From assembly GCF_016629565.1 (NCBI RefSeq), contig NZ_AP023057.1, forward strand, positions 1,612,001 through 1,676,000: a stretch of 64,000 nucleotides of DNA. The letters run 5' to 3'. Positions 10,573-33,613 of this stretch are shown one piece after another (the stretch's first letter is position 1; each line of letters begins with the position of its first letter). Origin of the DNA: Nitratiruptor sp. YY08-10 (lineage in GTDB: Bacteria > Campylobacterota > Campylobacteria > Campylobacterales > Nitratiruptoraceae). The notes below the pieces were generated by a model that saw only the letters and a list, made by a program, of their open reading frames with translations, had not been told where the DNA came from and ran no database searches. The position numbers and the translations under genes are program-made.

Positions 10573-11088
10573 TTATGCAGCTGCCGCTTTTTTTGCAGCT
10601 TCCAAAGCCTCTTCGTAGTTTGGCTCTTCAGTGATTTCTGGAACAAGCTGTTTATACACAACATTTCCGTCTTTATCGATAATGAAAATTGCTCTTGCAA
10701 GGATTCCTTTGAGTGGCCCTTCTGCAATCACAACGCCATATTTTTCACCAAAATCTCTGTTTCTATAGTCACTTGCAACAGTTAGGTTTTCAACACCTTC
10801 AGTCGAACAGAATCTTTTGCTTGCGAACGGAAGGTCCATGGATACTACAGTAACATCAACGCCTTCAATGTTTGAAGCTTCTTCGTTGAATTTTCTTGTT
10901 TCAGTAGCACACACTGGAGTGTCAAGAGATGGAACTACAACGATCATCTGTACGTTCCCTTGTGCACCACCCACTTTTTTCTCTTCAAGACCTGTTGTAA
11001 CAACAGTAGCCTCAGGAGCTTTATCTCCTACGTTTACTTCATTTCCTTCCAAATTTACTGGATTTCCTTTTAGTGTAACAGTTGCCAT
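10573..11088 (-). CDS. tpx: Thiol peroxidase (atypical 2-Cys peroxiredoxin)
   Basis: 171-aa Tpx that reduces hydrogen peroxide and alkyl hydroperoxides with thioredoxin. The peroxidatic Cys is in PSLDTPVCATETRKFN (about residue 60), and the resolving Cys is in ASKRFCSTEGVEN (about residue 94). Core motifs KGNPVNLEG, GDKAPEAT and FIIDKDGNVVYKQLVPEI are present. The start is ATG 11088, preceded by AGGAGG eight bases upstream; an in-frame TTG six bases earlier is less likely. It appears monocistronic. Confidence 0.95.
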   Translation of the reverse strand: MATVTLKGNPVNLEGNEVNVGDKAPEATVVTTGLEEKKVGGAQGNVQMIVVVPSLDTPVCATETRKFNEEASNIEGVDVTVVSMDLPFASKRFCSTEGVENLTVASDYRNRDFGEKYGVVIAEGPLKGILARAIFIIDKDGNVVYKQLVPEITEEPNYEEALEAAKKAAAA

Positions 11089-11212
11089 ATGCAACCTCCT
11101 TTTTCATTTTTTATTTTGGAGCAGATGCTCATAAAGAAATTATAGCTCAAATAAGACAAATTTTCTCTCATTTTTTCTTTGAAGAGAGAATGGCGGCCAA
11201 TATGTTACCTTT

Positions 11213-30837: not shown

Positions 30838-31104
30838 TCAAAGGACCATTTTCACATCTTTATGGGCCTTGAGTTCTTGATAGATATTTTCCCTCTCCTC
30901 TTCAGAGTGTACCATGATATCCGCATTGAAACTTTGATATTTTCCACGATTGCTCTGCTTTGAAAAGGTAATCGTTGTTGGACGATTTGTTACGCTTTCA
31001 ATAGCTTCTCGTGTCTTTTTGGCATTTTCGCCAATCACTTTATACCGCCAAATGGTTGGATACTCAATTTTTACTTTTTGATCAAAATCTTTAAGCTCTT
31101 TCAT
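30838..31104 (-). CDS. DUF493/YbeD-like protein
   Basis: 88-aa ACT-like alpha/beta protein of the YbeD/DUF493 type: YPTIWRYKVIGEN, a helix KKTREAIESV, strand TTITFSKQSNRGKYQSFNADIMV, and a helix ENIYQELKAHKDVKMVL. E. coli YbeD lies near lipB and has been proposed as a regulatory ACT-type domain; nothing here defines a partner. I start at ATG 31104, preceded by AAGGAG; a longer reading frame upstream lacks such a site. Confidence 0.78.
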   Translation of the reverse strand: MKELKDFDQKVKIEYPTIWRYKVIGENAKKTREAIESVTNRPTTITFSKQSNRGKYQSFNADIMVHSEEERENIYQELKAHKDVKMVL

Positions 31105-31543
31105 CAAAACTCCTTTTTTGCTTATCATAGCAAAAAGAAACAAAAACTACTGCTACTTAAGTTACAATTAAGCTTATACTTCGATCAACTCATTTGCCAA
31201 TATTTTGGCTTGCTCTAAAACTGTCTGGATTGCTAACTTTTGCATATTGGGCAGATATCCATTTTAAATAATAATTTTTATTTTTGTTCTTGTATTTTCC
31301 CTGATAGTCCAGTTTATTGTCGTATTTTCTTTAAATTTTTGAGAACAAGGCAATCTGAAGGGATATTTTTCAAAAATCAATGTCTATTCGTGATGATTTT
31401 GATGGAAGTATTTATTTTCCTCAAACATGTGAGGATTTTCTTCAATAAGAGGTGTACCTTTTTGACTCAATCCTCAAAAGATAAATCATTAGAGAATTTT
31501 ATATTAAGAAGTATAAAAAAGCCACTTTTCAGTGGCTAAAAAA
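31105..31543. other. Gene-poor AT-rich interval
   Basis: About 440 bases without a supportable gene. The minus strand at 31174-31260 encodes a 28-residue protein-like tail (YLPNMQKLAIQTVLEQAKI and ANELIEV), with stops just upstream, so it could be a decayed gene end. The plus-strand open frame across 31240-31539 has composition and residue use unlike a real protein. The only functional element I can support is the terminator at its right edge. Confidence 0.4.
31514..31543 (-). terminator. Rho-independent terminator of the small secreted-protein gene
   Basis: Read on the minus strand, AGCCACT, a 4-base loop (GAAA) and AGTGGCT form a perfect 7-bp stem at 31520-31537. TTTTTTATA follows directly. 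It begins within ten bases of the stop codon at 31544. Confidence 0.8.
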
Positions 31544-31750
31544 TTATGAAGAATAAGGAACTGTTTTTAATAAAACCTCTTTTTTTATTTGGTATTTTGC
31601 ACTATCTTCTTCTTCAAACCAGTAAGGATTAACCTGTTCGATTTCAACAGCCATAATTTGCATTTCCTCATCTATTTTGTCATTTTGACTTCCAGTATTT
31701 CCAAAAACAGCAATAGTCAATAATGCCATTATTGTTAATGTTTTTTTCAT
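31544..31750 (-). CDS. Small secreted protein under a Fur-box-like operator
   Basis: 68 aa. A signal peptide (MKKTLTIMALLTIAVFG) precedes an about 50-residue acidic mature peptide with NPYWFEEEDSAKYQIKKE. I know no family for it. Reality is supported by AAAGGAG six bases before the ATG, a TATAAT box 35 bases upstream, a Fur-box-like operator next to that box and a rho-independent terminator right after the stop. It is a monocistronic unit in an otherwise gene-poor interval. Iron or metal-stress expression is inferred from the operator. Confidence 0.7.
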   Translation of the reverse strand: MKKTLTIMALLTIAVFGNTGSQNDKIDEEMQIMAVEIEQVNPYWFEEEDSAKYQIKKEVLLKTVPYSS

Positions 31751-31784
31751 TGATGCTCCTTTAAAGTATTTTGTTGGAGCTGAT

Positions 31785-31806
31785 ATTATACTAATAATAA
31801 TTATCA
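31785..31806 (-). promoter_or_regulatory. Promoter with Fur-box-like operator
   Basis: On the minus strand TATAAT (31790-31785) is a perfect -10 box. Immediately upstream, 31792-31806 reads on the plus strand TAATAAT-A-ATTATCA. That matches the 7-1-7 Fur pattern TGATAAT-N-ATTATCA at 13 of 14 positions and the H. pylori form TAATAAT-N-ATTATTA also at 13 of 14. Binding there would block RNA polymerase. Confidence 0.6.
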
Positions 31807-31858
31807 AAATCTTTATTTTTACATAGTAGATCTTATTTTTTTGTATTTTTTTATTTTT

Positions 31859-31873
31859 TGATGATTGTTATCA
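31859..31873. promoter_or_regulatory. Second Fur-box-like site
   Basis: TGATGAT-T-GTTATCA matches the 7-1-7 Fur pattern at 12 of 14 positions. It lies 53 bases from the first site and just before a plus-strand GATAAT (31879-31884) that could be a -10 box. It might control a rightward transcript or act cooperatively with the first site. Confidence 0.45.
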
Positions 31874-31889
31874 TATTAGATAATAGAGT

Positions 31890-32012
31890 GCACTAATATT
31901 CGCAATTAAATTTGAATACTCTTTGGAAGAGTTTGAGAAATTTAAAAGAGCCAGTTTAGTCAGCAATCAATCAGCAGCTTTGAATAAGCTTTGCTCAAAA
32001 CTCTCTTTTTAT
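31890..32012 (+). ncRNA. Candidate structured RNA or attenuator
   Basis: ACTCTT-TGG-AAGAGT (31918-31932) is a perfect short hairpin. Its right arm lies in AGAGTTTGAG (31928-31937), which can instead pair with CTCAAAACTCT (31994-32004, one bulge), directly followed by CTTTTTATTT. The two pairings exclude each other, as in attenuators, and the second resembles a terminator. A further small hairpin (AGCTT/AAGCT) lies between. Start and end are estimates from the -10-like box and T-tract. It could be a free sRNA or the leader of the helicase gene. Confidence 0.3.
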
Positions 32013-32050
32013 TTATATTAAATATTAATTTGATTTTAAGGATAAACAGC

Positions 32051-32197
32051 TACAATACGCTCCAAGCCTTTGATAGGCGACTATTTACGATTCGATCCCC
32101 TTATCACCTCTACAATCCCTAAAAAACTTAGAAGTGACCTTTGATTGAATCGTCTGTGATTCGCTCATTGAAGGTTAATATTTTTTAAAGAGGCATA
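32051..32197 (+). promoter_or_regulatory. Structured 5' leader of the DEAD-box helicase gene
   Basis: A TACAAT -10-like box at 32051-32056 would give a leader of about 135 bases. Within it ACGATTCGATC (32087-32097) pairs with GATTGAATCGT (32143-32153) over 11 bp with one G-U. An inner stem TCACCTCT/AGAAGTGA (one mismatch) and outer GCGA/TCGC can extend it. The right arm can instead form a local hairpin, GAATC/GATTC, at about 32147-32162. Such alternatives suit a temperature- or helicase-responsive leader. Confidence 0.45.
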
Positions 32198-33613
32198 ATG
32201 ACTTTTACTGATTTCAATCTGAAACCCCAAATAATGAAAGCGATAGATCAAGCTGGCTTCAAAGAGCCAAGTCCTATCCAAAAAGAGGCGATTCCTGTCG
32301 TATTAGCTGGAAAAGATATGGTGGGCCAAGCCCACACAGGTACCGGTAAAACGGCTGCTTTTGCGCTTCCAATTTTAAATATGTTAGAGCTCGATGGCGA
32401 AGTAGAAGCCCTTGTGATCGTTCCAACGAGAGAGTTAGCTACTCAGGTTAGCGACGAGATTTTTCGCCTTGGAAAATATCTTGGCATCAAAACAGCCACA
32501 GTCTATGGAGGAAGCTCCTATTCAAGACAGCTCAATCATATAGCCAATGCAGCAGTGGTTGTGGCTACTCCTGGAAGACTATTGGATCTTTTAAAAAGCG
32601 GCAAAATCGAACTCAATCCAAAATTTGTCGTTTTGGACGAAGCGGATGAGATGCTTGATATGGGCTTTTTAGACGATATAAAAGCCATTTTTAACTATCT
32701 TCCGACCAATAGACAAACTCTTTTGTTTAGTGCAACAATGCCACAGGCCATCAAAGAGTTGGCTCAACAGATTCTCCACTCACCCGAGTTTATCTCTATC
32801 ACAAAAAAAGAGGTAACAAATGTAAATATCAAACAGTTTTACTATGTTGTAGATGAGCATGAAAGAGACGAAGCACTTATTCGTTTACTCGACTATAAAA
32901 ACCCAACAAAATCAATCATCTTTTGCCGTATGAAAATAGAAGTAGATCGCCTTGCACAATTTCTTGAAGCACAAGGCTACAGCGCAAAAGGACTGCACGG
33001 CGATATGCAGCAGCGTCAAAGAGAAGAGACCATCAAAGCGTTTAAACGAGGTCAAATTGAAATTTTAATCGCCACAGATGTAGCCGCGAGAGGACTAGAC
33101 ATTAGCGATGTCAGCCATGTTTTTAACTACCATATTCCTTTTGACCCTGAAAGCTATGTTCATAGAATCGGACGAACGGGAAGAGCCGGAAAAGAAGGAA
33201 TAGCGATCAGTTTAGTAACTCCTCATGAATTTAAGCAACTTTTACGCATCCAAAAAGAGGTTGGAAGCTCTTTAATCAATAAAGAGATTCCAACCTCTGC
33301 GGAAGTAAAAAACGAAAAGCAAAAATCGATGCTGGATATGATTCTTTCTCAAGAAGTATCCAAAGAAGCGATAGAACTTGTTGAACTTCTCGAATCACAA
33401 ATAGATATCTCCACAGCTGCACTCAAACTGGCTTCCATGGTTATCAAAAACGATACTGTCAGTGGGAACGAAAGAATCGGCAAAAGTCTCAAAGAGATCG
33501 AAAAGATGCTTGAACAGGCAAAAAGAGAACTTTCCAGACCCCAAAGAAGCGGCGGACGCAACAATAGAGGATATCGAGGCAACCGAAGAGGCCGTAACGC
33601 CCATAGACGATAA
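32198..33613 (+). CDS. DEAD-box ATP-dependent RNA helicase
   Basis: 471-aa RNA helicase with the full motif set: Q motif and F upstream (GFKEPSPIQKEAIP), AHTGTGKT (I), PTRELATQ (Ia), TPGRLLDL (Ib), VLDEADEM (II, the DEAD box), SATMP (III), ARGLDISDV (V) and YVHRIGRTGRAG (VI). The C-terminus is short and ends in an Arg/Gly-rich tail (RPQRSGGRNNRGYRGNRRGRNAHRR region), as in RhlE and CsdA. Likely roles are ribosome assembly, mRNA turnover and cold growth. I cannot separate RhlE from DeaD by eye. The long structured leader suggests autoregulation. Confidence 0.94.
   Translation: MTFTDFNLKPQIMKAIDQAGFKEPSPIQKEAIPVVLAGKDMVGQAHTGTGKTAAFALPILNMLELDGEVEALVIVPTRELATQVSDEIFRLGKYLGIKTATVYGGSSYSRQLNHIANAAVVVATPGRLLDLLKSGKIELNPKFVVLDEADEMLDMGFLDDIKAIFNYLPTNRQTLLFSATMPQAIKELAQQILHSPEFISITKKEVTNVNIKQFYYVVDEHERDEALIRLLDYKNPTKSIIFCRMKIEVDRLAQFLEAQGYSAKGLHGDMQQRQREETIKAFKRGQIEILIATDVAARGLDISDVSHVFNYHIPFDPESYVHRIGRTGRAGKEGIAISLVTPHEFKQLLRIQKEVGSSLINKEIPTSAEVKNEKQKSMLDMILSQEVSKEAIELVELLESQIDISTAALKLASMVIKNDTVSGNERIGKSLKEIEKMLEQAKRELSRPQRSGGRNNRGYRGNRRGRNAHRR

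Follow-up and report, generated by a model that had tools for sequence, protein, structure and literature searches.

The window, by which we mean the whole 64,000-nucleotide stretch analyzed, belongs to a genome (G000) of a deep-sea vent bacterium of the genus Nitratiruptor, which NCBI places in the phylum Campylobacterota, and carries on its minus strand a 68-codon gene (31544-31750, ATG to TAA) whose translation, P0001, is MKKTLTIMALLTIAVFGNTGSQNDKIDEEMQIMAVEIEQVNPYWFEEEDSAKYQIKKEVLLKTVPYSS. Read 5′ to 3′ along this strand, the unit opens with a Fur-like site, TGATAACAATCATCA (31859-31873), which agrees with the Fur consensus at 12 of 14 positions, and continues after a gap of 52 bases with a Fur box, TGATAATTATTATTA (31792-31806), which matches at 13 of 14 positions and has its single mismatch to the consensus TGATAATNATTATCA in its second half. 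One base further on is the −10 box TATAAT (31785-31790), followed by the Shine-Dalgarno sequence AAAGGAG (31756-31762), the gene itself, and an intrinsic terminator made of a stem-loop and a T run (31520-31537). An earlier sequence-only reading had described just such a small gene, with a 13-of-14 Fur-type site against TATAAT, AAAGGAG and a terminator of its own, and each of these elements was located on the minus strand, with the Fur-type site confirmed at 31792-31806. An alternative frame of 87 residues is possible from an upstream TTG, but this codon would fall inside the Fur box, and the ATG is therefore the likelier start.

The first 17 residues (31700-31750) form a predicted N-terminal export signal with a hydrophobic run, in line with the signal peptide claimed earlier; the predictions come from a crude script using hydrophobicity and the −3/−1 rule, and the predicted cleavage after residue 17 follows VFG (V-x-G) in the window protein and VFA (V-x-A) in its relative from G002, a second genome of the same genus. 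According to the same script, the mature peptide would have about 51 residues, 11 of them Asp or Glu, and a charge of −6, which bears out its description as acidic. The protein has no Cys, its mature part also lacks His, and its single NPYWF motif, at residues 41-45 (31616-31630), begins at mature residue 24. One AlphaFold job, run with an alignment of six proteins, returned a mean pLDDT of 51.7 and no usable fold.

Within the window, Fur sites at up to three mismatches are no better than chance, since 3 were observed versus 7.1 in shuffled sequence; the two best of them, at one and two mismatches, both lie at the peptide gene. When the local 450 bases were simulated 5000 times with a first-order model, 0.12% of the runs contained a site with one mismatch or none, and no run contained a pair of sites with two mismatches or fewer. 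Across the 1.82-Mb G000, a match with at most one mismatch occurs only four times: at C1:1643792, which is the site at the peptide gene; at C1:1160878, upstream of an operon of an OprD-family porin gene followed by FeoA and FeoB genes; and at C2:13757 and C2:14179, on the plasmid, ahead of a FUR-family gene and of a run of DUF2325, OprD, ferritin and imelysin genes. This plasmid iron cluster (G000:C2, L095), with its FUR-family, OprD porin, DUF2325, ferritin and imelysin-like genes, holds two of the four best boxes. Allowing two mismatches gives 24 sites, versus 12 for a reversed-pattern control; 11 of the 20 two-mismatch sites were given with their loci, and as most of these lie, by eye, beside genes without an evident iron role, many may be due to chance. 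Upstream of the chromosomal fur gene the best Fur match has 4 mismatches. A box in the promoter and the same operator at undoubted iron genes suggest that the peptide gene belongs to the Fur regulon, with Fur binding putative; G000 has three FUR-family genes, so that the choice of the acting one is an inference. The earlier proposal of iron-starvation control of an exported peptide thus finds support at the level of operators, the other three best boxes being at the porin-feoAB operon and the plasmid iron cluster.

Conservation of the frame in relatives, which the sequence-only reading had marked for checking, was found in G002, where the same frame encodes a protein 90% identical to the window protein; both Fur boxes (the second at 2 mismatches) and the terminator are kept there, and one base is inserted in the Shine-Dalgarno sequence. 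Over the 751 columns of the G000-G002 alignment the mean column identity is 95% and is equal in coding and non-coding positions, and dN/dS is about 0.8 with few changes, so that this pair alone, with its equally conserved flanking DNA, is insufficient to demonstrate selection on the protein. By profile, the window type occurs in 2 of 16 genus genomes (G000 and G002; 5 of the 16 are <90% complete), and hence the peptide gene is not a core iron function. Thirteen of the 16 genomes were found to have the gene that adjoins the peptide gene at its terminator end. In G011 and G004 this neighbor is adjoined by a 437-residue frame, 94% identical between the two, and the G011 copy has a Pfam match to the C-terminal portion of a type I restriction subunit; the stretches fetched from these two genomes stop short of the far side of the gap. 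In the window, a 59-residue remnant of the 3′ end of such a subunit (HsdR; 31180-31341, minus strand; tblastn E 5e-21 versus the G011 frame), which contains an internal stop, sits downstream of the peptide gene and before the next gene and is not part of the unit. In G008, which is without the restriction insert, and at six further loci, a frame judged by eye to be deaD-like comes after ~360 bases or less. The site of the peptide gene looks like an island site, and the gene appears to be accessory.

When 10 of the 15 family members described below were searched against Pfam and NCBIfam, nothing exceeded the curated cut-offs, the lowest E-values being 0.0027 (YmzC, for a repeat-type protein) and 0.0046 (Phr_nterm, on a signal peptide). 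PHROGs gave nothing below E 0.07 for four proteins, a PDB profile search gave one chain at E 0.071, and tblastn against plasmids gave no match. At Rfam gathering scores the window contains three tRNAs only, and a permissive search of 31000-32250 added three matches, all under their gathering scores; one of these, to MicA, covers the 3′ end of the gene and the terminator (31516-31586, minus strand; 29.4 bits against a gathering score of 41, E 0.036) and is probably due to chance. In the papers searched, NPYWF was met in plant proteomics only, and in the parts of PMC10092412, PMC3815106 and PMC2772861 that were available the peptide gene is unnamed and no Fur-box sequence is printed. Among the metal-induced genes in a table of PMC10092412 are the groEL and groES genes of strain SB155-2, and in the part of the paper that was available the two-motif paralogue described below was not found near them.

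When 60 relatives were searched first, the matches were weak and lay in small frames with NPYWF in common. A DNA pattern for NP[YF]WF[Q/E/D/H] is present in 30 of 398 genomes of the order, from which we kept the small exported-type proteins, found in family f1 (genera g1, g2 and g3) and in genus g25 of family f7; the remaining matches, which on inspection by eye looked like large enzymes or frames out of context, were dropped. Searching 397 genomes of the phylum with a 28-position profile then recovered the proteins in 8 of them (G349 would have been the ninth, but its match has an internal stop and was dropped), and within family f1 the profile gave E below 1e-8 in 8 of 22 genomes. In total there are 15 proteins in 11 Campylobacterota genomes, which fall into a window type (G000, G002), a two-motif type (G000, G011, G016, G018), a short type (G016, G017, G018, G019, G020) and a repeat type (G132 twice, G046, G235). 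The G016 two-motif copy has one NPFWF and the G018 copy NSYWF and DPYWF, whereas two repeat-type proteins combine NPYWF with NPYGF and two have NPYWF twice, with NAYSF or NAYYF additionally in three of the four. All 15 have, according to the crude script, an export-type hydrophobic N-terminus and no Cys, and after the motif or its variants there usually come Q/E and D/E. What is conserved in the alignments is the aromatic NPYWF.

Scored with a profile from which the two window-type rows had been removed, the window protein reaches 25.9 bits versus 11.0 for the best of 20,000 shuffles, a test that is favorable because the rows were chosen by motif; as an independent yardstick, NPYWF is expected by composition 0.012 times per 600,000 residues. 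Estimates of dN/dS are ~0.14 for a two-motif pair and 0.05 (the closest pair), ~0.3 and ~0.5 for three short-type pairs, two further pairs being not computable. In a named collection, which may leave out records near the genome of the window, the family was found in 5 of the 80 loci listed of 95 stretches, all in bins labeled Campylobacterales bacterium; short frames at L147 and L186 of that collection were judged by eye to be unrelated. NPYWFE also occurs in proteins of some of these genomes named by eye as Sir2-like (L040, L038, L029 and L030), and the two-motif genes of G000, G011 and G018 have a Sir2-like gene nearby, probably in both cases by coincidence. The NPYWF proteins are thus a new small family, unmatched in the libraries searched, of which the window protein is, on the evidence of its sequence, a real, small, predicted-exported and probably iron-controlled member. 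The earlier statement that the peptide matches nothing known therefore holds for Pfam, NCBIfam, PHROGs and PDB and fails for the NPYWF relatives.

The short and repeat types have a different operator. The palindrome AAATRRGAYN7RTCYYATTT, at 0-1 mismatch and starting within 80 bases of the start codon, precedes 8 of 9 short and repeat-type genes, and such a match was reached in 0 of 1000 simulations for each of the eight; the ninth gene, L059, has no palindrome at 0-1 mismatch. At the four two-motif genes the best match has 4 to 7 mismatches, at the window gene it has 5 (reached by 52% of simulations), and at the G002 copy of the window type 6 (reached by 96%). With up to 2 mismatches the palindrome occurs 191 times in ten genomes versus 69 for a reversed control, and 12 versus 7 times in G000, a modest enrichment. 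Two of its G000 sites stand upstream of a SufB-family gene and others upstream of NifU-like, Mrp/ApbC-like and SufE genes, and other sites examined there have neighbors with no obvious part in Fe-S metabolism. A further genome of the set has the palindrome before a gene named by eye as IscS-like (L116). The window has a putative Rrf2-type palindrome with 1 mismatch at 11149-11173, 54 bases upstream of a redoxin/thiol peroxidase-like frame (10573-11094). A version with 2-3 mismatches lies just upstream of an IscR-like rrf2 gene in 8 of 9 fetched copies and is absent upstream of the G002 rrf2 gene, and we infer that the IscR-like Rrf2 protein binds the palindrome. With a Fur box at the window type and the palindrome at 8 of 9 relatives of two other classes, the family seems to have been connected more than once to iron or Fe-S stress.

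The two-motif gene of G000 is located between genes for an OmpR-family response regulator and a 7TMR-DISM HisKA_2 kinase, as is that of G011 judged by gene order; in G018 it is ~2 kb from a relative of the kinase (52% identity), and in G016 it is not beside such a kinase. Before the TATAAT of the G000 and G011 genes there are 11-base direct repeats (L051 8135-8359 and L052 8348-8575; AGAACGTTTTT GGAACGTTTTT in L051), directly downstream of an OmpR-family regulator gene, and L240 contains a similar GGAACG...GAAAC stretch. The short-type genes of genus g2 are near genes for a trypsin/PDZ protease and a ferritin-like protein (by Pfam in G016, by eye in the others), and also near a second FUR-family gene.

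These surroundings raise the possibility that the small peptide modulates a sensor kinase of the envelope, its production being driven by one stress regulator and its action feeding back on a periplasmic sensor domain, a reading by analogy that would account for the place of the two-motif paralogue beside or near the kinase in three genomes and for the direct repeats in two of them. Among the 17 genomes searched, however, seven have no such kinase at E 1e-5, namely G002, whose peptide is of the window type, and G008, G013, G017, G020, G046 and G132; conversely, it is present in G004, G005, G012, G014 and G019, where the profile does not find a two-motif protein, and the G016 two-motif gene is not beside it. 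Being missing from 7 of 17 genomes, this kinase is not a general partner, and with G002 it does not accompany the peptide everywhere, though another kinase might; we regard sensor modulation as unlikely. The sequence-only reading had offered a metal binder as one possibility, and we give a similarly small probability to direct binding of iron or haem by the exported peptide, which would then serve as a metallophore or buffer iron in the periplasm. The Fur box and the strongly acidic mature part, with its charge of −6, fit a metal binder, but the 15 proteins have no Cys, the mature window peptide has no His, the conserved part is the aromatic NPYWF, and the MNIO-type maturation enzyme (PF05114) was found in none of the 11 genomes searched for it, so that metal binding by the peptide is possible yet unsupported.

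Two further alternatives concern the transcript and its operator. The box could belong to PerR or to the plasmid FUR-family protein instead of chromosomal Fur, the signal then being peroxide or another metal: it agrees at 12 of 14 positions with the Bacillus PerR consensus TTATAATNATTATAA, G000 has three FUR-family genes, and the g2 short-type relatives have both a second FUR-family gene and a ferritin-like gene nearby. We consider this improbable, as the Fur consensus matches the box better and the same consensus precedes feoAB; moreover, two operator positions set Fur apart from PerR in Bacillus, and these are occupied by G and C in the second box. Between perR and dps in G000, no match to either consensus has fewer than 4 mismatches. 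Finally, a short unit with a Fur box, its own terminator and a sub-threshold MicA match at its 3′ end might encode a Fur-controlled regulatory RNA, such as RyhB is, with the frame incidental or secondary. The Shine-Dalgarno sequence, the export signal, a protein-level motif common to relatives and purifying selection in two pairs of relatives all speak for a protein, and only tRNAs reach the Rfam threshold in the window, making a regulatory RNA very improbable.

We thus favor, with confidence that is evenly balanced and grounded in the features of the DNA and its translation, a Fur-repressed single-gene transcript for a Sec-exported, Cys-free, acidic NPYWF protein that would dock on an envelope partner. 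When iron is sufficient, Fe-Fur would cover the box at 31792-31806 beside the −10 box, helped by the second box, and block transcription, as established Fur biology suggests for plentiful iron; when iron falls, the peptide gene would be expressed together with the OprD-porin/FeoAB operon. The signal would presumably be cleaved on export, leaving about 51 residues in the periplasm or released, where the conserved NPYWF may dock on an envelope protein that is thereby adjusted to iron or Fe-S stress. Relatives have this module under the putative control of an Rrf2/IscR-like Fe-S regulator, or next to the genes of a two-component system. What the sequence itself establishes is the gene, its motif family and the boxes with their recurrence; the steps built on them are less firm, docking on a protein partner being the least supported; it is proposed because NPYWF is the best conserved segment, is repeated in several members, and belongs to a mature window peptide without Cys or His. 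A more tentative extension, which we think improbable rather than likely, is that Campylobacterota have an unrecognized envelope response to iron and Fe-S stress in which NPYWF, often present more than once, serves as a portable docking motif; Fur, an Rrf2/IscR-like regulator and a two-component system would each have independently recruited small exported proteins with one or two copies of it, all acting on one common periplasmic target. Small exported proteins are easily overlooked by annotation; here one operator ties such a peptide to iron uptake and a different operator ties its family to Fe-S assembly genes, across two Campylobacterota families, and the NPYWF segment could offer a direct handle for finding an envelope target of iron stress in vent bacteria.

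Several known systems resemble this arrangement in part. Bufferin/methanobactin-type metal peptides are likewise small and linked to metal stress, but they are matured by MNIO enzymes, whereas the NPYWF proteins have no Cys and none of the 11 genomes searched has an MNIO gene. MgrB, which acts on PhoQ, and CpxP, which acts on CpxA, are similar as small exported or membrane proteins made by a stress regulator and acting on a periplasmic domain; the window protein differs in its predicted cleavable signal, and no such Pfam match was listed for it. The FbpA, FbpB and FbpC proteins of Bacillus subtilis, which are Fur-regulated and serve the iron-sparing response, are, like the window protein, small orphans made on iron starvation under Fur (in our case a putative control), and are likened to it by description and not by sequence; they are cytoplasmic, whereas the window protein has an export signal and NPYWF. 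The other NPYWF proteins of Campylobacterota share with the window type the export-type N-terminus, the lack of Cys and stress-linked operators, but in them the motif either lies close to the start of the mature part or is repeated, where the window type has it once, from mature residue 24, and they have an Fe-S-regulon palindrome or a response-regulator neighbor in place of its Fur box.
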